A stretch of DNA of 64,000 bases, taken from positions 248,001 to 312,000 of the forward strand of contig NZ_WBOL01000001.1 of the NCBI RefSeq assembly GCF_008973715.1, in the 5' to 3' direction. Each line of letters starts with the position of its first letter. Position 1 is the stretch's first letter. The notes under the pieces are model-generated. The model did no database searches. It saw only the letters and a program-made list of their open reading frames with translations, and had not been told where the DNA came from. Source of the stretch: Nitrincola schmidtii (lineage in GTDB: Bacteria; Pseudomonadota; Gammaproteobacteria; Pseudomonadales; Balneatricaceae). Both the position numbers and the translations under genes were made by a program. Shown piece after piece: positions 4,854 through 19,313 of this stretch.

Positions 4854-6137
4854 ATGGACAGTTTGACACTCAATCCACTTTGCCATGCAAAAGGCGAAGT
4901 ACAGCTTCCAGGCTCTAAAAGCCTTTCGAACCGTTTATTGTTGCTTGCAGCACTGGCGGAGGGTGAAACACGCATCACCAACCTACTCGACAGTGATGAT
5001 GTCAAACATATGCTGAACGCGCTACAGAAGCTTGGCGTTCAGTATCAACTCTCTGATGACCGAAAGAGCTGCACTGTGCAAGGTACGGGCAAACCCTTTC
5101 AGGCAGATCAACCTTTAGAACTGTTTCTCGGCAATGCTGGAACTGCCATGCGCCCCTTGTGTGCAGCGCTTTGCTTGGGTCAAGGTGAATTTACCTTAAC
5201 CGGAGAACCGCGCATGTCAGAGCGCCCTATTCGTGACTTGGTAGACGCTTTGCTTCCTCTAGGTGCTCAGGTGACCTACTTAAAAGAAGAGGGCTATCCA
5301 CCACTCACACTTCACGCGAAAGGCCTAAGTGGAGGAACCGTTAGTATTCGCGGTAATATCTCCAGTCAGTTTTTAACCGCATTACTGATGGCAGCACCAC
5401 TCGCCAAAGATGATTTAGTCATACAAGTTGAAGGTGAACTCGTTTCTAAACCTTATATTGATATCACTCTACACAGTATGGAATTGTTCGGCGTCAAAGT
5501 CGAGAATGAGAATTATACGCGTTTTGTTATTAAAGGAAACCAATGTTATCGCTCTCCAGGTGAAGTGATGGTTGAGGGAGACGCCTCTTCTGCGTCTTAC
5601 TTCTTGGCCGCTGCAGCGATTGCAGGTGGAACCGTTCGTGTCTATGGTGTGGGGTCAGACAGTGTGCAAGGCGACAAAGCCTTTGCAGAAGTGTTAGGTA
5701 AAATGGGTGCCAACGTGACCTATGGACCGACGTGGATCGAAGTGACGCGTGGAGATGAGCTAAAGGGTGTCGATTTAGACCTAAACGCGATTCCTGATGC
5801 CGCCATGACGATTGCTACCACCGCCCTGTTTGCCAAAGGGCCAACAGCCATTCGTAATGTGTATAACTGGCGAGTTAAAGAAACTGATCGGTTAAGTGCA
5901 ATGGCAACTGAATTGCGTAAAGTCGGTGCCGAAGTGATCGAAGGTGAAGACTTTATCGAAATCACTCCGCCTACTGAACTCATAGCGGCGAGTATCGATA
6001 CCTATGATGATCATCGCATGGCGATGTGTTTTTCCTTAGCTGCCTTTGGCAACGCACCCATCACGATTAATGATCCGGGGTGTACTCGTAAGACCTTTCC
6101 GGAATATTTTGATCTGTTTGGAAAGATTACCCAGTAA
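4854..6137 (+). CDS. aroA: 3-phosphoshikimate 1-carboxyvinyltransferase (EPSP synthase)
   Basis: Transfers enolpyruvyl from PEP to shikimate-3-phosphate, the sixth step of the shikimate pathway, in the cytoplasm. 427 residues from the ATG at 4854. That start aligns with the E. coli N terminus (MDSLTLNPL), whereas an upstream ATG at 4797 would add 19 unrelated residues. Landmarks are [65 protein letters not shown] and [13 protein letters not shown]. The glycine and alanine of the GNAGTAMRP loop mark a class I (glyphosate-sensitive type) enzyme. It stands alone rather than next to serC or tyrA. A hairpin terminator follows at 6148. Confidence 0.97.
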
Positions 6138-6147
6138 CTGGATTAGG

Positions 6148-6171
6148 AATTCGCCCACATCTGGGCGAATT
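6148..6171. terminator. Intrinsic terminator between aroA and bolA
   Basis: Perfect 10-bp stem AATTCGCCCA / TGGGCGAATT with a 4-base loop lies between convergent aroA and bolA. The AT ends could serve in both directions. Confidence 0.75.
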
Positions 6172-6184
6172 AAACATCGGTTGA

Positions 6185-6493
6185 CTACTTCCCACCACCT
6201 TTACAGTTAGGTGAAGCAGGAACCAAACCTTGTAAGGACTGCCATTCGTCTGGCGTATAGAGATGCAGCGCCAGCGCATGAATGGGATTTTGCATCAACT
6301 CTGCGACTAAGCCATACACTTTTTGATGACGACGAACCTTGGGCATAGCGTCAAAATCTGAACTAACCAAGGCTAGCTTGAAGTGGCTTTCCGTAGCGGG
6401 TCCTGAGTGCATGTGACTTTCATTTTCAAGGGCAAACACGTCAACATTCACCCCTTCACGGACTAAAGATTCTAATTTTTCAGCAACGTTCAT
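6185..6493 (-). CDS. bolA: BolA family protein
   Basis: 102 residues. BolA proteins pair with monothiol glutaredoxins and help handle Fe-S clusters; E. coli BolA also acts as a morphology and stress regulator. Seen here are the BolA core ENESHMHSGPATESHFKLALVS, with the conserved histidines, and the helix-turn segment KVRRHQKVYGLVAELM followed by IHALALHLYTPDEW. The start codon overlaps the stop of the upstream DUF3422 gene in an ATGA junction, so the two are translationally coupled. Confidence 0.93.
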   Translation of the reverse strand: MNVAEKLESLVREGVNVDVFALENESHMHSGPATESHFKLALVSSDFDAMPKVRRHQKVYGLVAELMQNPIHALALHLYTPDEWQSLQGLVPASPNCKGGGK

Positions 6494-7815
6494 GATAGGT
6501 TCTGCTTCTTTTCTGCTAATTTCATAAAATGATGGTGTATACGTCTGACACTAAACCACACTAAAAACACCACCAGCGGAATCATTGCACCCGTCACAAT
6601 GGATTTATCGAAAGGCACACCGAAGTTGTAAACGGCATCGATCAAATATTTGAGTAATCCAACCAAGTAATAACTGATTGCAACCACTGATAAGCCTTCC
6701 ACGGTATGCTGCATCATTAATTGAACTTGAGAACGCTTATCCATTGAGGTTAACAAGGTTTGATTTTGATGCTGAATGGATAGCTCTACACGTGTACGCA
6801 TCATATCAGATGCGCGGTCAACACGGCGCGAAATATCTTCTAATCGATAGGCAACCGATTCACAGGTCTTAACCGCTGGTGTTAGTCGGCGCGTCATGAA
6901 TTCACGGATGGTTAAATGCCCTGATACTTCATCTTCCCGTAGTTCTTCTAATCGTGTTAACACTAGCTGATGATACGCACGAGTTGCAGAGAATCGGAAA
7001 GTGGATTTGGCTCTAAAGGCTTCAATACGAGCAGCCATATCGGTCAACTCTGCCAGTATCGCTCGCTCATCAACATGATTGTGATCGGCCAAGTCCTGTG
7101 TAATCCGAGCCAGTTGTTGATCCATCTCAGTTAGATCTGGGGTAATTTCTCGTGCTAAGCTAACGGAAAGTAACGACATCAGACGATAAGTTTCGATTTC
7201 CAGTAATCGCTGTGTTAACCGACCTAACTGACTATTCGACATACGATGATTCAGTACCAAAAAACGCCCAAAACCATCGCTATGCATTCTGAAAGTACCC
7301 CATACGCGAGCACTCCCATTATGAGGGCAACTCCCCACCAAACGCATTCCCTCAAATGCGGGACGAATCAATTGAATATCCGTTTCTAAACCTTTTTCTG
7401 ATGATTCTAACTGCAAATGGAAAGCGGCAACCACCTGTCCTTTTAACCCTGCTAACCAACCTTCGGGTAAAGGACTGATGCCCGTCGTTACAAAAGGGAT
7501 TTCTCCATCATCTACGGGTGCTAAATTAATAAAGGTATAGGAAGCAAACTCCATGTGCTGTTCGCGGCGAATTCGGAAGTGACCAAAATCTTTCTCATAA
7601 CAGCGAACTTCTTTATCGGGTTGAGGTAAACCCATTAATTGATGCAATTCACATAGATGGTCAAACTGTTCTTGGCTTTGCTCTGGCGTCGTCAGTAATG
7701 CTAGATGTGTAATTCGTGCTGGACAGGGAATAACCTGAAATGGACGCGAGTGTAACTCATCATACAATGCAGATCGTAATGGATGCTGCTCCATCGGAAA
7801 GGCGGTGTCCATCAT
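6490..7815 (-). CDS. DUF3422 family inner-membrane protein
   Basis: 441 residues matching DUF3422, a family of unknown function. The N-terminal motif LYDELHSRPFQ is diagnostic. A soluble region runs to about residue 360, including a helical stretch (about 215-345) likely to form coiled coil. The last 80 residues hold two membrane helices (LSVVAISYYLVGLLKYL and MIPLVVFLVWFSV). This resembles CorA/RmuC-like topologies with a large cytoplasmic domain, but no function should be claimed. It is first in an operon with bolA (4-base overlap). An alternative start lies seven codons further in at MEQHPLRS. Confidence 0.8.
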   Translation of the reverse strand: MMDTAFPMEQHPLRSALYDELHSRPFQVIPCPARITHLALLTTPEQSQEQFDHLCELHQLMGLPQPDKEVRCYEKDFGHFRIRREQHMEFASYTFINLAPVDDGEIPFVTTGISPLPEGWLAGLKGQVVAAFHLQLESSEKGLETDIQLIRPAFEGMRLVGSCPHNGSARVWGTFRMHSDGFGRFLVLNHRMSNSQLGRLTQRLLEIETYRLMSLLSVSLAREITPDLTEMDQQLARITQDLADHNHVDERAILAELTDMAARIEAFRAKSTFRFSATRAYHQLVLTRLEELREDEVSGHLTIREFMTRRLTPAVKTCESVAYRLEDISRRVDRASDMMRTRVELSIQHQNQTLLTSMDKRSQVQLMMQHTVEGLSVVAISYYLVGLLKYLIDAVYNFGVPFDKSIVTGAMIPLVVFLVWFSVRRIHHHFMKLAEKKQNLS

Positions 7816-7897
7816 CGGGAAAGTCTCTTAGATAAAAGTCTTTTAAATAGAAAAGTCTTTTGGTTTTATGTATTCACATTATATCGTTATACGAATT

Positions 7898-8455
7898 CTA
7901 TCTAAATACATATCCTATGTTAAACATAACCCCTGCAGTCCCAAAAGGTATCATTTCCAGATTGACACGATGATGCTCAACACCAAAAGCAGGTAAAATG
8001 GCAGGTGCTACACCAAAACGGTTAAAGGGAATCTTGTCTCGATATTCACCCCGATAACCGTGTAACAGTCCAGCAGTCAATTTGGCATAGGCCCGAGTGG
8101 TTTCATTTTCAAAATAGTTGTAACGACCACCAGCATATAGATAGGTGCTTTGCTGATTAAACGAGTTTTTAAACGTTGCTCCGCCAACTAGCCAGCGAAT
8201 TTCGTCCCGCCAATCACTTCCCGCTGGTCGTTGAATATTGATGTTATCTTTTTCTGCGAAGGTCCATTCAAGATTAATTAAACGCTGCTTTTCATGATGA
8301 TCTGGGTCATTACTATAATGAGTTGTAAACAATGATGTTTGCAACAATAGCTCTCCACCCTGTTGAAAGAGGGGCTGAGTATCGGCATGAGAAGTGATCG
8401 ACAAGCCTGTTGCCAAAACTCCTAAGGCAGTTAAGGCTGTAATACGTTTAATCAT
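7898..8455 (-). CDS. Exported small outer-membrane beta-barrel protein
   Basis: 185 residues from the ATG at 8455, chosen because AGGAG precedes it and a signal peptide follows (MIKRITALTALGVLATGL...SHA). The mature part is beta-rich with conserved-looking blocks WLVGGATFKNSF, QSTYLYAGG, KLTAGLLHGYRGEYRDKIP and NRFGVAPAILPAFGV, ending in ...NIGYVFR. Homologues in pseudomonads have been labelled 'sn-glycerol-3-phosphate transporter', a name with no support in this sequence. The pattern fits a small PagP-like barrel; the penultimate F with a terminal R is a slightly unusual barrel end. Single gene, divergent from the hypothetical gene at 8573. Confidence 0.65.
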   Translation of the reverse strand: MIKRITALTALGVLATGLSITSHADTQPLFQQGGELLLQTSLFTTHYSNDPDHHEKQRLINLEWTFAEKDNINIQRPAGSDWRDEIRWLVGGATFKNSFNQQSTYLYAGGRYNYFENETTRAYAKLTAGLLHGYRGEYRDKIPFNRFGVAPAILPAFGVEHHRVNLEMIPFGTAGVMFNIGYVFR

Positions 8456-8572
8456 GGTGCTCTCCTTATGAACATTCGACACTAGTATACCCTGCAAGGC
8501 CAAAATTGGACAAAAAGGGATGGCTAGAGTTTCATCCTGCTCATTTTGAAAACTTTAGGTTACAATCTATGG

Positions 8573-9211
8573 ATGAATATTGCGGTGTATCCTTGCCTAG
8601 AGTCAAAAGAAGACTGGCTGATTTTTTTCAGACGGGAGCATCCCTATTGCCTGATAGATACACCATCGACCCTAGTCGACTTTCAAAGTACGTTTTTACA
8701 ATTAACCTGCTTTAAGCCTAATGAAGAAGACGCTGCTCGCTACACCTTGGGCTCTCGATCGAGCTTGGAACCTGCTTGGCAATTGATAAAAGGATGCGGT
8801 TGGAGTTTACGGTCTGTGATAGAGGGTCTGGAGAGCCTCAACTTCAATACCAATGTGCGTGATAACTCAGCCTTCAAAATTCCCAGTGAGCTCAGCGTTC
8901 GTAAGAGTTTCGCAAAGGAGCCTCGACTTTGTCGCTTTATCAAACCCACTGTTTCGAAAACCCTTAGTGCGGAGCAACTGGCACAGTATCTTTACGCTGA
9001 GCAGTATGACCAACTTGAGATGCTGTCAAAATCCTTCACTCCAAGCCTTCACAGCATGATTCTTTCGTTGAGCACAGAACCACTCAAGTGGCAAGTTACT
9101 GAAGAAAATTCCTATTTAATAGCTATATTTAACTCTCAAGCTGTCTGTCAATTGCGGCTGAAAGCTACTCCTGCTAAACGTCACCTTTTGTCTGATAAAA
9201 TACCCTTTTGA
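8573..9211 (+). CDS. Hypothetical protein, no family recognised
   Basis: About 212 residues from the ATG at 8573; a TTG at 8546 would add nine codons, and neither start has a strong ribosome site. No signal peptide, membrane helix or catalytic motif was seen. Cysteines are scattered rather than paired. The C-terminal third (EENSYLIAIFNSQAVCQLRL) looks like a small alpha/beta fold. It lies between the exported barrel (divergent) and the HD-GYP gene (same strand, 106 bp on). Its length and lack of an overlapping better candidate favour a real gene, though it could be lineage-specific. Confidence 0.55.
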   Translation: MNIAVYPCLESKEDWLIFFRREHPYCLIDTPSTLVDFQSTFLQLTCFKPNEEDAARYTLGSRSSLEPAWQLIKGCGWSLRSVIEGLESLNFNTNVRDNSAFKIPSELSVRKSFAKEPRLCRFIKPTVSKTLSAEQLAQYLYAEQYDQLEMLSKSFTPSLHSMILSLSTEPLKWQVTEENSYLIAIFNSQAVCQLRLKATPAKRHLLSDKIPF

Positions 9212-9317
9212 AAATAATGGTTTCTTAACAAAAACATCTATACTCTGATAAGAAATAAATGAATAAAATTAACTCTGCAGAATCAAACAAAATGACTCTG
9301 CCCCGAGGCCAAACCTA

Positions 9318-12011
9318 ATGCATTACGGCTTTAATTGTGCAGATAGACGTAAGAGAACCTCTCTACTAAGCAGACTTTTTTTACTTCTGTGCCTAGTGTT
9401 TTCTGCTTGTGTTAGTTTGCCTGTTTTTGCAGCAAGTGAAACCGTTAAAATCGGTGTATTAAGTCTTCGTGGTCATCAAATGGCGGAACTGTCATGGGAA
9501 GGCATGGTTAATCACCTAAATCGCTCTTTACCTGATTACGAGTTTATCTTGGTTCCGCTAGCCTTCGATGAGATTAACTTAGCAACCCGACAGCGCAGCG
9601 TTGACTTTATTATTGCCAACTCATCGATCTTTATCACGCTGGAATCTCGTTACAACGCCAGTGCCATCGCTACACTCTACACCCGAACCGCTTCAGGTAC
9701 TCCGGTTAACAGTTTTGGTGGTGTGATCATTTCACGAGTCGATAATCAGTCTGTGACGTTAATCAATGACCTGAAAGGCAAACGTATTGCCGCTGTCGAT
9801 GAAACGTCATTTGGCGGTTGGCAAACAGGTTTAAGAGAAATCCTTAATCAAGGAATTACACCGTCTCAGTTTAGATCCCTAACCTTTATGGGCACACACG
9901 ACGCTGTCGTCGAAGCAGTGATCGCACAAGAAGCGGATGCGGGCTTTGTCAGAACGGGCACGCTTGAAAAAATGGCCGGTGAAGGAAAACTGCAATTAAG
10001 CGATATTTATGTCATTGCAGAAAGGCATTTAAGCTATTTCCCTTACAGAGTGAGTACTCGACTCTACCCCGAATGGCCGCTAGCCAAACTTGCTCATGTA
10101 TCTGAAGATTTAGCGTTAGAGGTTGCTTTGGCTTTATTTACCATGCCTGAAGCAAACATGCTGTATCACTCACCTTATGGCGCAGGCTGGGGATTACCAC
10201 AAAATTATCAGCCCATACATGGACTTTTACGCGAACTAAAACTTGAGCCTTATGATGATGTAGCCCATCAACCCTTCCCTGAAGCACTGAAAGCCTACTG
10301 GCATTATCTGTTAATTACCTTGTTATCCTTCATTACCGGTATGATGTTTATTGCCTACGTGATACGAATTAATCGTCGACTTCATCATCATCAACAGAAA
10401 CTCAGTCATTTAAATACCGAACTTGAGGATCGTGTTAGTAAACGTACGTTACAAATTGAATCCTTACTCGAACACGAGCAATACCTTAGAGGGATTGTGC
10501 AAACCGTAGCGGATGTTAACCAAATCATTATCACCTCAACGCATCGAATGGAGATGTTAAAGTCTGCCTGTGACCGGCTGGTGTCTCATCCTGAGTATCG
10601 TTTCGCATGGGTTGCTAGCCTTCGTCATACCGAACAAGGTGACTATATTGAGCGCTTAGTCAGCTCTTATGGCTCTACAGAGCAGTTGATAGCCTTAACG
10701 CAATCACCCGAGATGCTGGCTAAAATTCACCAAGCCATTTTACAGAACCAATTAATACAGATCTCTTCAAACGAACTGTCAGATGAGCGGATTGCTCCAC
10801 TGGGTTTAAGTGCTGCCGCGTTTTTACCACTGCGTTCAGATGCCTTTTCTCAACCTATCGGCATGCTCTGTGTCTATACCCATCGTAAAGAGGGCTTTGA
10901 ACAAGACGAAATCAGCATGTTAGACCAACTGGCAGGCGATCTTGGTTTTGCCATGCATGCATTTATCCGTCGTGAAGAAAGTGAACAATCAGAAGCCTCT
11001 CGTATCAGTAATTATGAAGAAACCATCCAAGCGATGGTCGATATGATTGAGAAACGTGATACTTATACCGCGGGCCACACTCGTCGTGTCGCTAAATACT
11101 CTGAGCTGATTGCCCGTAAAATGCAGCTTCCTGAGAATAAAATTCAGTGCTTAGTGAAAGCATCAACACTTCATGATATCGGCAAAATCATTATTCCTGA
11201 TGCAGTGTTGTTAAAGCCCGGTCAACTGACACCCTTGGAGTATGAACTGATCAAACAGCACGTGGTAGTGGGTTATGAAACGCTGTCTGGTATAAAAATG
11301 TACCAAGATCTGGCTGAATTAATGCGACATCATCATGAGCGTTTAGATGGCAGCGGTTATCCTCAGGGACTAAAAGATGGTGATATTCCGTTATTATCTA
11401 GAATCATGGCAGTTGCTGATTCCTTTGATGCCATGACGTCTAACAGAATTTACAAACCCAGAAAAACCATTGAAGAAGCTATGAAAGAGTTACAAGCACT
11501 TGCTGGAAAGCATTATGATGTCGCTGTCGTTGCTGCTGCCGTCGATGTTTTGGCTAATGAAGACCTAAGTGATGTATCCAAGGAGGAACAACTCCCCGCT
11601 TCGGACCTAGAGAAACAACGTTTCGCTTACTTTTTCAATGACCAGTTAACAGGCTTACATAACGCCGAGTATCTTCACTTTATGCTACAACGGGGATTGC
11701 ATGTGCACTTTCACTCGTTGCAGATGCTGCTGTTGAAAAACTTTGCTGAATACAACAGCAAGTATGGCTGGCATGCCGGCAATCAACTGTTGAAAGACTT
11801 CGCAGATTGGTTAGAAGTGAAGTGTCCAGGCGCTATGCTGTTCCGAGTGATGGGGGATGATTTTGTCATCATCAATCCACCAGATGGTTGGTTAAACGAT
11901 TTTGATCTTGTCTCTAGCTCACCGCTGACAGGAACTCAAGTGGAAGCCAATATTCAACATTTCAACTGTGATGATGCAGGGCTATCCGCCCTGCAAGCTT
12001 ATTTAAAATAA
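9318..12011 (+). CDS. Membrane sensor: PhnD-like domain, GAF, HD-GYP phosphodiesterase, degenerate GGDEF
   Basis: 897 residues. After a signal/TM segment (about 15-40), residues 45-300 resemble a PhnD-type periplasmic phosphonate-binding domain (VKIGVLSLRG, LKGKRIAAVDETSFGGW, EAVIAQEADAGFVRTGTLE). A membrane helix follows at about 333-353, then coiled coil and a GAF-like region (390-550). HD-GYP spans about 560-740, with HD at 619-620 (TLHDIGKIIIPD) and HHERLDGSGYP ending at 682, so c-di-GMP hydrolysis is expected. A C-terminal GGDEF-like domain (760-880) has MGDDF at 845-849 instead of GGDEF and is probably inactive or regulatory. It likely converts a periplasmic ligand signal into lower c-di-GMP. 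The ligand is unknown. Confidence 0.85.
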   Translation: MHYGFNCADRRKRTSLLSRLFLLLCLVFSACVSLPVFAASETVKIGVLSLRGHQMAELSWEGMVNHLNRSLPDYEFILVPLAFDEINLATRQRSVDFIIANSSIFITLESRYNASAIATLYTRTASGTPVNSFGGVIISRVDNQSVTLINDLKGKRIAAVDETSFGGWQTGLREILNQGITPSQFRSLTFMGTHDAVVEAVIAQEADAGFVRTGTLEKMAGEGKLQLSDIYVIAERHLSYFPYRVSTRLYPEWPLAKLAHVSEDLALEVALALFTMPEANMLYHSPYGAGWGLPQNYQPIHGLLRELKLEPYDDVAHQPFPEALKAYWHYLLITLLSFITGMMFIAYVIRINRRLHHHQQKLSHLNTELEDRVSKRTLQIESLLEHEQYLRGIVQTVADVNQIIITSTHRMEMLKSACDRLVSHPEYRFAWVASLRHTEQGDYIERLVSSYGSTEQLIALTQSPEMLAKIHQAILQNQLIQISSNELSDERIAPLGLSAAAFLPLRSDAFSQPIGMLCVYTHRKEGFEQDEISMLDQLAGDLGFAMHAFIRREESEQSEASRISNYEETIQAMVDMIEKRDTYTAGHTRRVAKYSELIARKMQLPENKIQCLVKASTLHDIGKIIIPDAVLLKPGQLTPLEYELIKQHVVVGYETLSGIKMYQDLAELMRHHHERLDGSGYPQGLKDGDIPLLSRIMAVADSFDAMTSNRIYKPRKTIEEAMKELQALAGKHYDVAVVAAAVDVLANEDLSDVSKEEQLPASDLEKQRFAYFFNDQLTGLHNAEYLHFMLQRGLHVHFHSLQMLLLKNFAEYNSKYGWHAGNQLLKDFADWLEVKCPGAMLFRVMGDDFVIINPPDGWLNDFDLVSSSPLTGTQVEANIQHFNCDDAGLSALQAYLK

Positions 12012-12021
12012 AGCCGATGTA

Positions 12022-15000
12022 TCAACTCAACGCTTCCATTTCATCCTCATCAGCGGTATCCATATCGATCATTTTATAAGGGTGATCAGATGCTAATAGT
12101 TCCTTACCCTTCTCGGTTGGGAACTCAACATCAATATCCACCACACGTCCATCACGACAGACGTTGATGATGGTATCCATACACGAACTTAGCAAAGAGT
12201 ATTTTTCATCCGGTGCCGCAATAATGGTTTGCAAACCTAAGTCGGTCATAAAACCAAGAGAGGTCACCGTGTTCTCTGAGTCCAGTTTGTTAAAGGCTTC
12301 ATCGAATACCGACAAACTGAAACCACCCACAGGCTTACCATCACTGCCCTCTTTCAAGCGATAGGTCGCCCCCAACGCCGCTGCCATGGCAACATAGAAA
12401 GGCACTTGGTGCTCACCACCTGAACCGGTCTTGATACGCTGAGTCAGTGTGGTTTTGCGATTACCCTGTAGATCTTTCACCACCAACTCAAAGTTGTAGA
12501 AGTTACGGTAATCCTGAAGCAGTGTACTTTCACCTTCGTTCTTCAACACTTCATGAATCTTAGCCAAGGCATCACGGTGCCCTGAATCTTGCTCATGATT
12601 GATATCAAACAGTGAACCCACGTTTGCCTGATCCATGCGGGTGTATGCTTCTACCAGTTCCAGAATATCTTTCAATTCAGGGTTAGGCATCATCTCGAAG
12701 CTATACATCTCTTTGTGGAACGGACGATTTTTCAAGTGACTGTTAAGCTCACGGATCAACTCTTTAATCTTATCGATCTGATCGTTCAAGTGCGCCACGA
12801 AGTCAGAGCGGAACGCGGTTTCCGCTTCTAGGCGAGCACGTTCAGCCTTCTTGGTGTAAAGCGCAAGTTCAGATTCTTGCAGGGCCGTGACGGTTTCATT
12901 GACATACTTTTCTAAATCTTCATGGGTCGAGTCAGCACTGATATTGTCTAAACCACCGTGCGTCATGCCACCGCCATGATAGCGTGCTTTATATTGTGCT
13001 ACGGCGTCACGAACACCGTTTTTCTTCTTCTCGTGTAACTGCAATTCGCTTTGTGCTTTTTTGGCGGCTTCAAAAATGACACGCTCCAGTTCGCCACCAC
13101 AGCTCTCATCCAGATAATCACGCTTTTCTTGAGCAGATTGAGCATCGAAATTCGGATTTTCTTCACAGCGACTTCGCGATTGAGCATGTTCCGATAACTC
13201 TCTTTCCAACAATTCAAGTGAAGAGTGGTCTTTAATCATGCCGGTACGTACTTTCTGCAGCTTGTCCATTAAGGACTTTTGACGCGCTTCGGTATTCTTT
13301 TGTTGTTCAGCCAATTCTGCAATTCGATTTTGAATGCCGGAGTCATCATGGTTACGCAGGTCAACAATCGCTTGATGATAGCCTTCAATTTCACTGTTCA
13401 ACTGATCGCGCTGGTTAGCTAAATCAAACACACGCTCGTTGACTTGTAACAAGCCTGAACCCAGTTGAATAAGCGCATCACGCAGTTTTTCCAGAGTTTC
13501 ATGCTGTTTACCCAAGGTGGCAAATTCAGCAATCATCTCATCTACTTGTTTGCCTTGCAGTGCTAACTGATCACCTCGACGACGAATCCCCATAATGGCG
13601 CTGAGTTCGTTGATTGCGGTGGTCGAACCTTCAGACTGCAGCATGCAGTCATAAGTTAAGGCACGTTCATGGCGTAACAGATCGTTTTCCGTTTCTACCG
13701 CCATGACACCACCCAGGGCACGGTTCATGTACGCACGGGCATGCTCGTTGTCGGTTTCAACAAACTCAACCAAGGTGCCACGCTTCGAGCGGTTCAGCCA
13801 CTCATCGGTCTTAGTGGTGTTGATAATACGACAGCCTTTAAGGTGACGACCTTTGCGGCGGTAAAGTGTAATGGCTTCTTTAACACGATCAGGTGAAACC
13901 ACTAAGGCTTCACGACGAGCACCTAAAAAGGACTCTATGGCGATACGCCATTTATCTTCGGTGATGTCCACTAGCTCACAAATGGGCGTGGACTCTATAC
14001 CATACTCTTTGAGCAAACCGATCAATTCACGCGTGGCGTGACGCACGGGGGCACGTCCCTGCTGCAACTGTTCGACGGCACTTTTTTGATTTTGAATCTG
14101 GGTGCGAATGTCATTAATGCGAATAACTGACTCTTCGTAACGACGGGCTATCGCTTTACGAACGGGATCAACCATCTCACGAAGTTTAGTCAGGGTGTTA
14201 TCTACCTCTACAGGTGATTCCGGCCACATGCCACTTAGGGTGTTTTCACCGGTTCGCCATAATTGCACCGACTGCTGCACCACAGGACGGAAGTTTTCGG
14301 GTAACAACTCCAGTTGCTCTGAAAAACCGACCGTGGTGCGCATCAGGTTATAGACCTGCTGAATCTTTTCACGCACCACCGATACTTCGTGCTGGCGAGC
14401 AGAAATTCGAGATTCGAGTGCATTCACCTTGTGAGCTGAATCGGTATTATTTAACTCAGCACGCGCGTTGGCTAGATCTTGCAGGGTGTTATTCAGCGCT
14501 TCACTGTTTGCTTCTAGGTCTGCTTGAAGTGTTGCTTCCTGATCGGTGTAACTTTCTAATCGTTCAGCAGCTTCCTCTTTTTTCAGGTCAGCATGTTCAA
14601 AACGACTTTCGTGAACCACCCACTCATATTCAACCGAGTTTTTCACATTTCGAGCAATACCCTGACAAAGCTCCTGAACCTTCTCCAATTCTGCAATGCG
14701 ATTGGCAACTTCTTGAGTTTTCTGCTCCATCGCTCGATACTCATCCAGCGATTTACGAAAGGCACCGACGTGGACAATGTTTTCGTCCAATACGAATTCA
14801 CGAATAAAGCGCGTTGGACTGTCGATAGGGACGAACTTCAGCGCGTTTTTGAAGTTTTTAACGAACTTTTCATCATCATTCGGCATTTGTGCATCATGAC
14901 TCAGATGCGTGACCATTTCTTTCACGAAACGGCTCGCGCGTTTCTCCAACACCATCTCTGGACACTGTTTAAGCAAGCTTTCACGCACTTCTGGCCAGGG

Positions 15001-15453
15001 TTTTGGCAAACGCCCACCACCCTGTTTGATGGAGAAATCATCAAGCGTGACAGAAAAGTCCGGCAAGATAAAACGACCGAGAATGTCCTCATCGGCACTG
15101 GCAGTCGAGGCACTGATCGCAATGCCGACACAACTTTCTTTGGCGGTTTCGGTATCAAAGAAACTCAAAGCCATATAGGTTAATGAGTCTTCACGAGCGT
15201 TCACTTTTTTGCCTAAGTCATCCAAGAAACCTAAACAGTAGGTACGCAATGAACGTTCAGACTTTTCACCCGCAGAGGCGTTAAAGCTAAGATTGCGCTT
15301 ATGCCCTCCCATCAATACAGTTTGTATCGCGTCCAACAGTGATGATTTACCGGAGCCGTTTGGACCAACAATAGCAACGTTCCCCTTGATAGGAATCTCT
15401 ATCGCACCCAATACATACCAGTTAACAAGGACAATACGGTTAAGCTGTTTCAT
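12022..15453 (-). CDS. mksB: MksB/JetC-like condensin SMC ATPase
   Basis: 1143 residues with split ATPase halves around long coiled coils. Walker [10 protein letters not shown] lies at residues 30-38. Near the C terminus are the ABC signature region ([17 protein letters not shown]) and Walker [14 protein letters not shown]. Coiled coil fills about 230-450 and 650-940, with a hinge-like domain near 480-620. This is the SMC subunit of MksBEF bacterial condensins, and JetC of Wadjet plasmid-defence systems is the same family. It is last in the operon mksF-mksE-mksB, and its start overlaps mksE by 14 bases with AGGAGA upstream. The next gene is convergent, so no jetD/mksG nuclease follows. Names follow P. 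aeruginosa usage and are by family resemblance. Confidence 0.85.
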
Positions 15454-16069
15454 CGGTATTCTCCTGTTCGGTCACATCGTCACCAGAATCAATATCGCAC
15501 AGAGCTTCTAGCTGACCGATGTAGTCTTCAACCACCACCTGACGTATGACAGGGCTTATCTTTAATGGAATATTCTTGGGATCAGTTTCATCTGCTTTGC
15601 CACGCTCGACTAAACCATGACGGGTAAACAGTGACAAAATCTCTTTTAAGCGGGTTTCGTTAGGGATTTCTTTTCCGGTCAGGTTTTCATAAAGACGTAA
15701 CAAACTATCGGTAGTGATGTAAGCCTTACCATCTTGGATCTCGAAGTTTTCTAGAGTTTGCTCATAAAGCTGACGTAAGCATAACAGCAGCAACGACTCA
15801 TCCAAGCGTAACTTAAGCACGCGCTCATCACCCTGCGGAACCACGCCAATGTAGGCTTCATCCGGTTGATATATTAATGTCCAACCGATGGCTTCAAACA
15901 GGTTACGAAAGTAATCCACATGCGCAGAGATCAAAAAATAACTATCGCGATGCACAGGGCGATCAGCGTATAAAAATTGACTGACTAACAATAAGTTGGC
16001 TGCACGGGTAAAGTCTTCGGCCTCATATTTTTCGGCACGGGATAAGGCTTTTTGCAGATCTCCTAGCAT
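15440..16069 (-). CDS. mksE: MksE/JetB-like condensin accessory subunit (DUF4194 type)
   Basis: 209 residues, the typical MksE/JetB size. These proteins bind the kleisin MksF as winged-helix (KITE-like) dimers. Seen are the N-terminal helical segment with [17 protein letters not shown], the block [28 protein letters not shown] and the acidic C-terminal tail. It overlaps mksF by 7 bases and mksB by 14 bases, so the three proteins are almost certainly made together in a fixed ratio. AGGA precedes the start codon. Confidence 0.82.
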
Positions 16070-17463
16070 GATGTATTCCTGTGAATTTCAAAACCACGAC
16101 ACTCCACCACATCATCGACACAAATATAGGTGTCATCAAATTCGATGCGATACTGACTGGCCACTTGCTTAGCTTTTTTGCCTAAGGATTGTAAGTGGCG
16201 GATGTAACTAAAACAGATGTAATCTTCCACTGATTCAATGGTGAACTCAGTAGCTTTAAGCGTTTGTCGATCACCAAAATGACGCGCAAGATAGGCTTCA
16301 ATGCGATCAATTTTGACTTCGCGACGCTCTTTGTACTCTTTAAATAAACGACGTAATTCCAATACTTTGGGGTCAATTTCGATACGTGTAATCACTCGCG
16401 GTTTTGCTTCGACACGCTTACGCATCGGAGAACGAATACTGACCGGTGAAATAAACGCCACTTCATCCAGCGTTTTGGGCAATGGAATCCGAGTGCCTTT
16501 TTTCTGACCTAATTCGGCAATTAAACGTGATAAGCGTGCAGCCATACCTGGCGTAGTTTTATCCATGTAACGCACAGTATCCGCAACACGTTTTTCCAAT
16601 TGGTAGCGAAAATCATCAATCGCAGCTAAGCGTTGATCAACCGATTCAAAGATACGAATAATTCGATTGATATGCTGATGAACCATGGCTTCAGCGCTGT
16701 CATAATCCAATTCATACTGTAATTGATAATGGTGGCTTAACTGTTCAATGCGCAACAAATCAAACTGCAAATCACGCAACATAGCGATAATTTGGCGACG
16801 ATAGCGGAAAGGGTTGTTTCGTGTTTTGAGGGTTTTATAGTCAGAAACCAGAATTTGTTCTACGAAACGATCAAAAAAGCCACGAACAATTTCTTGTGGA
16901 TTCTTGCTTTCAGATAGGGAGATTTTCATCTCACGCAATCCAAGCAGCATATCGGTCAAGTGAGCACTGAACTCAGCCGCCGTTTGAGCTGCCTCAGACA
17001 GCGTAATACCTCGACCCACTGGATCATTCACTGCCGCTTCTAACGAACTCAGGACGTTAAGTACCGCACCACCGTAGCTACGTTTTTCTAGGCGGGCAAT
17101 CGAGACAAGTGCACGCAGCATATAGCTAACCGATGGGGTCAGTAACACATACTGGCGATAGATACGCTGTTCTTCTTCTAACCAGCCACACTCAACCAAG
17201 CGGCGATAAATACGATTGGTGTAATCGGCACTGGAGCGAGGCGGCTCAGCATCATCATCCCCTTCCGCTTCCCAACGACGCACACCGATACGCACCACAG
17301 CATTCTCTATGGTTGAGCGTACCAAGTCTCTGGGAATAAAAGGATCGATAAGATCTTCATCAAAAAAAAGATCTGCCAATTCCAGCAAAACCACCTGATA
17401 GATTTGGCGGTTTTGACCTGATAAGGGAAGAAAGATTGTATCCGGTAATTTATTGAAGAGCAT
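16063..17463 (-). CDS. mksF: MksF/JetA-like kleisin subunit
   Basis: 466 residues from the ATG at 17463 ([14 protein letters not shown]). AGGGA precedes it, whereas the longer frame to 17496 adds only an unlikely leader. The family (DUF5716/JetA, MukF-like) has an N-terminal winged helix ([22 protein letters not shown]), a central helical bundle (about 150-330) and a C-terminal winged helix that touches the SMC head. It is the first gene of the condensin operon. The complex should load on DNA and extrude loops. It works either in chromosome organisation (MksBEF) or, when a JetD nuclease is available, in plasmid cleavage (Wadjet). Confidence 0.82.
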
Positions 17464-17588
17464 GCAGATCCCTGATTTACGGTGCAGACAACCCAAACGC
17501 AGATTCTAGCGGAAATTTAACTGGGTTCATAACCTTTCATGGCAGAACCCTAAGATCCGTCAATTAAATGTTAAGCCTGCTTAGCTTG

Positions 17589-19313
17589 TTACAGTTTTGC
17601 CTGTTGTAGCTTTGAGTAGGTATCTAGCATTTTATGATGTGTAACAAAGCCTTTAAGGGATTCATCATGGGTACCAAAGTCATCAAACAGGCCTTCCCCT
17701 TTCAAGAAACCAGAGACCATTCTGATCATATCAGCGCCATAAATACGCTCTAAGACCGGTAAAAAGTCTTTTAGATCGCGCGACTCGTCCAATTCGATGG
17801 ATAACAACTGATGTAAGCAACGATAGGTTTTATGCGCTTTAGGCGGCACTTGGGCAAATTCAAGCACCCATTCGCACAACTCTCGGCCCAGTGGAAGATC
17901 ACCAGAGGCTAGCGCTAGGCGCATTTTCAGTTCACCCATTCTTAACCAAGACCAGACGGTTCCAGCATCGGGAGCCACTCCAATCAAATCTGCGACCAAA
18001 TGCGTTTCTTCAAAATGTGCATCTTCTAGCGCATCTAACAGGTCAGCACACCCCTCTTGATCCAAATCACTTAACGCCAACAAGGCAGGACGCAACGCCA
18101 TCGCTGCACTGTTATTTCGCCAAATGAGCTTATCGACTGGATAAACCTCTGACATACCTGGAACAATAATACGACAGGTATAGATTCCCATGTGCTCATA
18201 GTCCGCTATGTAGATATCCATATCGACGCGATGAATTTTAAAGCACAACTCTTCAAATTCAGCTTGGGTGTCGCCTTCGATATTCCATGGTGTATAAGGG
18301 TAATCGGTGGTGGCCGAGAACATATCCCAAGCCACCAACCCACTAGAGTCAATGAAATGAGTTAATAGATTTTCCGGATCAGCGGCGGCCTCGATGTCCA
18401 GTGTTGGAATCGGGAAATTCTTTAAATCATCCAGTTCGCGACCCTGTAACATCTGCGTGACGGCACGCTCAAGTGCCATGGCAAACTTAGGATGGGAACC
18501 GAAAGATGCGTAACAACCACCGTCATCCGGATTAATAAGGTTGACATTGACCAAGGGGAACTTCCCACCCAACGACGCATCACGCACTTCAATGGTATAG
18601 CCTTTATTTCTGAGTGCTCGGATAGACGCTTTAACTCTTGGGTGCTTAGCAATTTCAGATTCAGGAATCAATGGCAAGCTAATACCTGATGAGATAATGG
18701 TATTTTTAATGTGACGTTCAAAAATTTCAGATAACGCCTGAACCCTGGCTTCCCAAATCGTATTACCCGCAGCCATGCCATTACAGTCATACAGATTGCC
18801 AATGATATTGACGGGAAACCAGACAGTTTCACGCGTGCGTTGCATCACAAAGGGCAAGGCACAGATGCCTCGTGATGCATTGCTGGAGTTAATATCTATA
18901 AGCGCTTCTGGGTGTATCTCGTTGTTTAGGTCGTAGTGATTTCGTGTTGCTTCATCCAGTAAACCATCTGGCCATTCAGAGGATTTCACGGTAAACCATC
19001 GTTCTTGCGGGTAATGCACAAACTCAGACTTAGCAACCGCCGATCCCCAAAAGTAATCAGCAAAGAAATAGTTGGTACTTAAACGTTCGACCATTTCTCC
19101 CAACGCACTGACTAAAGCAGCCTCTCTGGTCGCGCCTTTACCACTGGTGTAAAAAAGCGGGCAATGACGATCATGAATATGCACAGACCAGACATGCGGA
19201 ACAGGGTTTAACCATCGTGTTTCTTCCACTTCTAACCCAAACGCCAACAATGCAGCACTTAGGCGTTCAATGGACTCCTCAAGCGGCGCATCTTTTCCCA
19301 AAATCTGCGTCAT
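17589..19313 (-). CDS. ycaO: YcaO-type ATP-dependent cyclodehydratase-family protein (RimO accessory)
   Basis: 574 residues, close to E. coli YcaO (586), the factor that helps RimO methylthiolate ribosomal protein S12. The YcaO ATP-binding pattern is seen in ALGEMVERLSTNYFFADYFWG and in ALSEIFERHIKN (S-E-x-x-E-R). The region from about 430 is helical and TPR-like, as in the E. coli protein. It lacks the proline-rich C terminus (PxPxP) of azoline-forming YcaO enzymes, and no precursor peptide or cyclase partner lies nearby, so a RiPP role is unlikely. Single gene with GGGAGA before the start; rimO is not in the window. Confidence 0.9.
   Translation of the reverse strand: MTQILGKDAPLEESIERLSAALLAFGLEVEETRWLNPVPHVWSVHIHDRHCPLFYTSGKGATREAALVSALGEMVERLSTNYFFADYFWGSAVAKSEFVHYPQERWFTVKSSEWPDGLLDEATRNHYDLNNEIHPEALIDINSSNASRGICALPFVMQRTRETVWFPVNIIGNLYDCNGMAAGNTIWEARVQALSEIFERHIKNTIISSGISLPLIPESEIAKHPRVKASIRALRNKGYTIEVRDASLGGKFPLVNVNLINPDDGGCYASFGSHPKFAMALERAVTQMLQGRELDDLKNFPIPTLDIEAAADPENLLTHFIDSSGLVAWDMFSATTDYPYTPWNIEGDTQAEFEELCFKIHRVDMDIYIADYEHMGIYTCRIIVPGMSEVYPVDKLIWRNNSAAMALRPALLALSDLDQEGCADLLDALEDAHFEETHLVADLIGVAPDAGTVWSWLRMGELKMRLALASGDLPLGRELCEWVLEFAQVPPKAHKTYRCLHQLLSIELDESRDLKDFLPVLERIYGADMIRMVSGFLKGEGLFDDFGTHDESLKGFVTHHKMLDTYSKLQQAKL

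Follow-up and report, generated by a model that had tools for sequence, protein, structure and literature searches.

What does a Wadjet-like operon do when the nuclease that defines this defence system is missing from it? The question is raised by the mksF-mksE-mksB operon (jetA-jetB-jetC in Wadjet terms) of Nitrincola schmidtii, three intact overlapping genes on the minus strand at 17463-12022 of the window, the 64,000-nucleotide stretch analysed here (positions 248,001 to 312,000 of contig NZ_WBOL01000001.1, assembly GCF_008973715.1). An earlier reading made from the letters of the DNA, hereafter the sequence-only reading, had offered two options: an MksBEF that organises the chromosome, or a defence complex relying on a nuclease encoded elsewhere. 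The first is supported, and all the more so because the genome lacks Smc, ScpA and MukB, and MksFEB would therefore be the main condensin and not an accessory one; the second is not supported. Judging from sequence comparison, we put at roughly 0.8 the probability that the operon encodes a type I Wadjet JetABC motor that has lost its nuclease, acts as the sole structural maintenance of chromosomes (SMC) condensin and is inherited as a core gene.

The identity of the genes agrees with the sequence-only reading, which had seen a kleisin, MksE and an SMC ATPase in overlapping frames: coordinates, Pfam and PADLOC all concur. By PADLOC, mksF matches JetA1 (740 bits), mksE matches JetB1 (338 bits) and mksB matches JetC1 (PDLC00503, 1834 bits, residues 1-1139). 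Pfam recognises JetA in mksF (PF18982, 325 bits), DUF4194 (82 bits) and MksE (PF21980, 32 bits) in mksE, and Walker B, AAA_29 and SMC hinge regions (SMC/SbcC domains) in mksB. An SMC ATPase with a hinge, a winged-helix kleisin and a KITE subunit are found together in one operon, which is the composition of a MukBEF-like SMC condensin, and successive genes share 7 and 14 bases. The longest open reading frame of mksF begins at a TTG (16063-17496), and we prefer the ATG at 17463 because the relatives start at the same residue. The Walker A pattern of MksB is kept in 60 of the 64 full-length family loci, the other four, all from Neptunomonas, reading GPNGSGKSA, and in 21/21 Marinomonas loci; these motif counts cover 64 of 69 family MksB loci (L091, L106, L107, L109 and L110 were left out) and Marinomonas loci drawn from 15 genomes.

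With regard to structure, the family profile A1 matches the solved JetC proteins 9qxt and 8as8 (E-value about 1e-15), solved JetB matches mksE weakly (E 0.095), and the sequence search of solved structures with mksF gave no match at E 1. The AlphaFold model of MksF, in which domain placement is uncertain (pLDDT 78, pTM 0.42), is closest to E. coli MukF (Foldseek 9gm7_D, E 3e-5; VIA 7nz2_C1, Z 13.2 over 283 residues, root-mean-square deviation (rmsd) 12.8) and also matches Wadjet JetA (VIA 9qe0_E, Z 12.4, rmsd 25.8; Foldseek 8q72_E, E 1e-4). Between mksB and its nearest relative, the nonsynonymous divergence (dN) is 0.007 and the synonymous divergence (dS) 0.76. The dN/dS ratio is 0.009 for mksB (against L055), 0.014 for mksE and 0.021 for mksF (against L053), the last two with dS near 2, and dS was defined in three of seven comparisons; by these ratios mksFEB is under purifying selection. 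Chance open reading frames were considered and rejected on the domain matches and on the mksB frame, which is conserved as protein and therefore is not chance. A promoter scan of 11900-17800 returned 6 sites against 9.3 expected, none of them upstream of mksF on its strand, and a DNA search in E. coli genomes found no match.

A first body of evidence is that no other condensin was found. In the genome of N. schmidtii (3.14 Mb in 34 contigs, completeness 100), the best match of the Smc profile TIGR02168 is MksB itself, with 46.8 bits against a cut-off of 567, and the same profile detects Smc in 10 of 14 control genomes. Profile searches of this genome found no ScpA (PF02616) and no MukB (PF04310), and the sole match of PF21980 type is the mksE of the operon, so there is no second MksE. 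We extended the searches to 115 genomes, the present one included, with a threshold of 1e-60 for Smc; 71 of them belong to the same family (f1; NCBI taxonomy places Nitrincola in Oceanospirillaceae). MksB is present in 64 of these 71, our genome among them, and Smc in none of the 64. Assembly gaps do not explain this absence, because six of the 64 are single-contig genomes (G012, G016, G021, G024, G028 and G051). ScpA above the cut-off was likewise found in none of the 64; a sub-threshold match of 22.1 bits in G041 contains a stop and lies among unrelated genes. The MukB search returned weak, short matches of about 40 residues in 255-amino-acid frames of one genus (g4), those of G040 and G052 just above the cut-off, which we read as ordinary ABC ATPases; the sole strong MukB match among the relatives lies in a 1471-amino-acid frame of G077.

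In agreement, the same picture was obtained with 390 genomes sampled evenly across the order, in which both MksB/JetC and Smc were called at 1e-60. A JetC/MksB match occurs in 44 of them, namely 17 of the Nitrincola family, 17 Marinomonas (f27) and 10 scattered genomes. Smc is present in 342 of the 390, including all 10 scattered genomes with JetC, and in none of the 17 family genomes and none of the 17 listed Marinomonas genomes, all of which have MksB. The listed Marinomonas share one genus label (g42), and any genomes of f27 with neither gene would not appear among the matches listed. In a class sample, 6 of 369 genomes match JetC/MksB, our own included. A missed Smc, ScpA or MukB was considered and rejected on the profile searches of the genome, the relatives and the order sample. 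On these profile matches, MksFEB is the only SMC-type condensin found in the genome, and the same is true of the other MksB-bearing family genomes as far as tested.

These results bear on the possibility that MksFEB is an accessory complex like the MksBEF of P. aeruginosa, working beside a condensin that our searches overlooked. The name Mks would fit, and MksBEF is sporadic and typically occurs alongside SMC-ScpAB or MukBEF according to PMC7485682, with a similar statement in PMC4255302. We regard this as quite improbable: the profile that finds Smc in most order and control genomes does not find it here, and ScpA, MukB and a second MksE are likewise absent. Moreover, MksB is almost unalignable with a MksB of P. 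aeruginosa type. The comparison was made with the 943-amino-acid MksB of G090, which goes with a strong PF21980 MksE and stands in for P. aeruginosa itself; the match extends over 66 residues at 27% identity (E 0.002), and profile A1 at 1e-3 has no match in L221. Orthology with the P. aeruginosa-type MksB (about 940 amino acids) was rejected on this ground, and the comparison with P. aeruginosa MksFEB that the sequence-only reading had proposed therefore yields no orthologue.

The second body of evidence concerns the nuclease. The sequence-only reading had noted that no jetD adjoins the operon and had called for a genome-wide search of a JetD/MksG homologue. Indeed there is none in the operon, and profile searches of the whole genome gave no match to JetD_C (PF09983) or DUF3322 (PF11795). 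As a control, PF09983 scored above its cut-off in 10/10 JetDs beside the jetC genes of relatives, these ten having been chosen with our own JetD model. With that model, no JetD was recognised in the family or Marinomonas mksFEB loci examined, which are L001-L030, L053-L111 (59 named loci, flanks of up to 6 kb), L138-L167 (flanks of 1.5 kb) and 19 longer loci (L118, L131-L135 and L176-L188); the model is incomplete, as it missed the JetD of L123, a PADLOC JetD1 of 604 bits. A jetD beside the operon in another assembly, which the sequence-only reading had named as contrary evidence, was not seen. Genome-wide searches for JetD, ScpA and MukB in one Marinomonas genome, G096, gave no match. The JetB motif 'IFDR' is said, in PMC10586767, to contact JetD; the loose pattern [ILVFM]F[DEN][RK] occurs in 4 of 45 JetB sequences, at internal positions, both with and without JetD and never near the N-terminus, and two of the rows compared (L199 and L201) look like misread frames.

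Could the complex still be a defence system in which JetABC would detect small circles and call in JetD, or some other endonuclease, in trans? PADLOC assigns JetABC to Wadjet type I, the remotest JetD types escape PF09983, and this profile finds JetD at loci other than mksFEB in three family genomes (G020, G029 and G032). However, the genome studied has no match to either JetD profile, no JetD was recognised beside the mksFEB operons examined in the family and in Marinomonas, and three JetD genomes of 71 compare poorly with 64 of 71 for MksB. The JetDs of G020 and G029 lie on a contig other than that of mksB, beside a different JetC1 of their own (L122 and L123, by PADLOC, JetA and JetB not scanned). 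In addition, near-family-wide presence together with the loss of Smc is unlike the behaviour of defence genes. A nuclease acting from elsewhere thus seems very unlikely to us. In G032 (L124, G032:C30:18000-36000), the PF09983 JetD at 9129-10283 adjoins a small AAA ATPase gene, and mksFEB is on another contig.

Second Mks-type operons do exist in the family, where a second MksE match is found in 9 of 71 genomes, with weakly JetD-like neighbours in L223, L227, L228 and L229. L223 (G012:C1:2037000-2050000, 5026-10595) encodes a 925-amino-acid MksB and, behind it, the product of a fourth gene, which matches JetD2 weakly; the same genome also carries MksB of the type seen in the window. L224-L226 are further second, sporadic operons of this kind. 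As judged from these loci, a constant nuclease-free operon against sporadic armed ones is the pattern predicted by a housekeeping role.

Where does the operon come from? In a careful tree of 39 JetC/MksB proteins, the MksB of the Nitrincola family and of Marinomonas form one clade with support of 100/100, as they also do in a 60-row tree. MksB falls among JetC proteins, and not outside the Mks/Wadjet clade as would have contradicted the sequence-only reading. The careful tree leaves out L174 and L198 (incomplete JetC frames near contig ends), L205 (on a very long branch) and some of the family and Marinomonas rows that are almost identical, and L204 is in neither tree. The searches of order and class at 1e-60 yielded fifteen genomes outside the clade, and in 10 of the 12 readable ones jetD lies directly downstream (G079, G135, G242, G310, G350, G430, G542, G560, G562 and G782). 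In G088 and G210 no JetD was recognised; G258 and G757, with incomplete JetC frames near a contig end, and G233 are outside the twelve. End branches measure 0.04-0.38 within the clade and at least 1 in 15 of the 23 others, to which dense sampling may contribute. A JetD-bearing ancestor is the likelier direction on this unrooted tree with long branches, and we infer that a nuclease-bearing Wadjet was ancestral. JetD seems to have been lost more than once, three Alphaproteobacteria included, according to the genes recognised. The plasmid records of Rhizobium, Salipiger and Methylobacterium (L199, L200 and L201), which are large replicons, contain JetABC-like operons without a recognised JetD downstream, possibly a separate loss. 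A different JetC type of about 1210 amino acids, without recognised JetD and with Smc also present, was observed in G100, G112 and G210 (L136, L137 and L175), and a plasmid of Vibrio nigripulchritudo carries a Wadjet whose jetC (L204, 8527-9677) is broken by an IS3-family transposase.

Traces of Smc-ScpAB are left in the family. One genus (g2; 5 of the 71 genomes) has Smc, and all five genomes lack MksB; in G011 (L232) smc, ligA, a PHP gene, scpA, scpB and an rluB-like gene stand together, the ligA and rluB-like labels being what we take these genes to be, and another genome of the genus (G026) has Smc and no ScpA match. Two family genomes have neither MksB nor Smc, G019 and G064 (the latter 1.5 Mb and 90% complete). 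In G019 the PHP and rluB-like genes keep the order of g2, and the 1.1 kb between them, with 16 or more stops in each frame, retains no more of ScpA than a fragment that itself contains stops. To judge from this gene order, the family probably had Smc-ScpAB early on, and it decayed in place in G019. The genome of G019 measures 2.3 Mb, and no condensin was found in it in these searches.

Several observations weigh against the reading of MksFEB as sole condensin. The operon is not essential throughout the family, since g2 has Smc and no MksB and G019 has neither. MksB is in pieces in G067 and in G006, a draft of the same genus, where the fragments contain stops. In the order sample, 14 of 390 genomes have neither gene at the thresholds used, G072 and G120 among them. 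On the side of the nuclease, PF09983 misses the remotest JetD types, and JetD2/JetD3-like genes, all with weak matches to PADLOC or to our own model, occur at the extra Mks loci of G005, G007, G012 and G044; a remote nuclease in the genome studied could therefore have escaped the profiles. The JetD of G032, with no recognised JetC beside it, could in principle act with mksFEB there, and the genome-wide search for JetD in Marinomonas covered G096 only. The tree needs at least five changes of JetD state, and the direction of evolution rests on its unrooted topology with long branches. Finally, JetC without recognised JetD coexists with Smc in G088 and G210, and therefore a missing JetD is by itself no proof of a condensin role.

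With these points taken into account, we still favour MksFEB as the condensin of this organism, and its work may be pictured as follows. MksFEB is a MukBEF-like complex in which MksB provides the ATPase arms, MksE the KITE subunits and MksF the kleisin; it would load on the chromosome and extrude loops with ATP, and loop extrusion would compact and segregate the chromosome. In Wadjet, extrusion ends in the cutting of a small circle, a step that would be absent here. A role in chromosome organisation and segregation has its indirect support in the absence of Smc, ScpA and MukB. The least likely alternative is a nuclease-free silencing or compaction of foreign circles, as proposed for eukaryotic Smc5/6, with a chromosome that would do without condensin, as G019 may do; it would suit a Wadjet-like motor whose cutting partner was not found, but leaves unexplained why Smc is absent from all 64 family genomes with MksB and from the 17 Marinomonas genomes listed, and present in the MksB-free g2.

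It is somewhat probable, in our view, that a disarmed plasmid-restriction machine displaced Smc-ScpAB as the only condensin in two marine lineages, the Nitrincola family and Marinomonas. Intermediates of such a takeover would still be visible in JetD-bearing relatives with Smc, in a genus with Smc alone and in the degraded scpA of G019. Smc may have been lost independently in both groups after a shared coexistence, because the operon lies near bolA in both while one genus of the Nitrincola family keeps Smc. What appears new is the replacement of Smc-ScpAB by a JetABC that is still recognisably of type I Wadjet and not of P. aeruginosa type. In the open literature we found no statement of JetABC or MksBEF as the sole condensin of these genera, although an earlier mention in papers of 2011 is possible. 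These culturable bacteria carry a JetABC of recognisable type I sequence and no recognised JetD, and no other SMC condensin was found in them that could mask its role; the idea of a passage from defence to housekeeping is therefore directly testable.

Features of the mksFEB locus in the window and, in the last row, of the scpA remnant of G019
Feature	Position	Strand	Remarks
mksF / jetA	16063..17463	-	kleisin, 466 aa (amino acids); ATG at 17463, protein begins MLFNKLPD
mksE / jetB	15440..16069	-	KITE subunit, 209 aa
mksB / jetC	12022..15453	-	SMC ATPase, 1143 aa
Walker A of MksB	15340..15366	-	residues 30-38; alignment A1
SMC hinge of MksB	13690..13986	-	residues 490-588; PF06470, 26.6 bits, cut-off 22.5
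ABC signature of MksB, SGGEHQ	12406..12423	-	residues 1011-1016; in 64/64 full-length family loci and 21/21 Marinomonas loci
Walker B of MksB, FDEAF	12292..12306	-	residues 1050-1054; in 64/64 full-length family loci and 21/21 Marinomonas loci
ycaO	17589-19313	-	same strand as mksF, upstream of it by 125 bases; NF040716
phosphonate-binding/GAF/HD/GGDEF gene	9318-12011	+	downstream of and convergent with mksB; Pfam
gene without Pfam match, 221 aa	8546-9211	+	the HD/GGDEF gene lies between it and mksB
bolA	6185-6493		after DUF3422
broken scpA remnant, G019	L129 (G019:C1:308000-322000), 6602-7692		between its usual neighbours

The surroundings of the operon are those of a core locus and not of an island, as judged from the gene neighbourhoods compared. 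The gene beyond mksB is convergent, as the sequence-only reading had it, and begins 10 bases off; among family loci that have a downstream open reading frame, mksB is followed by an opposite-strand gene in 51 of the 55 named ones and in 7 of the 8 that are unnamed. A homologue, of about 219 amino acids, of the gene without Pfam match is found in 50 of 67 family loci (L070 and L184 left out), mostly convergent and adjoining mksB. In 8 of 9 Marinomonas loci the gene immediately behind mksB is bolA, which in 41 of the 67 family loci lies a little further on, after a few other genes. The Marinomonas count and that of the opposite-strand genes do not depend on a JetD model. The named family loci, 59 in number, belong to Nitrincola, Marinobacterium, Neptuniibacter, Neptunomonas, Amphritea, Aliamphritea and Pontibacterium. 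Of these loci, 56 have MksE and 55 have MksF, the gaps falling at contig ends. In the complete genome of Aliamphritea spongicola (L106, AP025283.1, 4215-9445), the coding of mksF and mksB is spread over several frames, through sequencing error or decay. The convergent gene of N. schmidtii, which sits between mksB and its usual downstream neighbour, fuses a PhnD-like periplasmic domain to GAF, HD and a partial GGDEF domain, and may be a sensor linked to cyclic di-GMP.

How does MksFEB compare with the known systems? With type I Wadjet (JetABCD, also MksBEFG or EptABCD) it shares the kleisin-KITE-SMC gene order with overlaps, the PADLOC matches and the place of MksB among JetC proteins, but PF09983 and PF11795 detect the defining JetD/MksG neither in the operon nor elsewhere in the genome, the operon is a core gene of its family whereas Wadjet is sporadic, and Smc-ScpAB is absent. 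Loop extrusion by JetABC on the chromosome was, according to a review of 2023, undocumented for any JetABCD system. Like MksBEF of P. aeruginosa, MksFEB is a three-gene MukBEF-like complex with no adjacent nuclease and, here, a putative chromosome role, but P. aeruginosa also has SMC, as stated in PMC7485682, and the Nitrincola genome does not. The role that MksFEB would fill is that of Smc-ScpAB, which is absent here, and from which it differs in having a KITE subunit and a kleisin of MukE/MukF type. MukBEF is regarded as having supplanted Smc-ScpAB in the ancestor from which enterobacteria and their relatives descend. No match to the MukB family was obtained in the Nitrincola genome, and its MksB has 1143 amino acids against the 1471-amino-acid frame of G077; nevertheless, MksFEB resembles MukBEF of E. 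coli and relatives as a kleisin-KITE-SMC complex in place of Smc-ScpAB, with an MksF model most like MukF.

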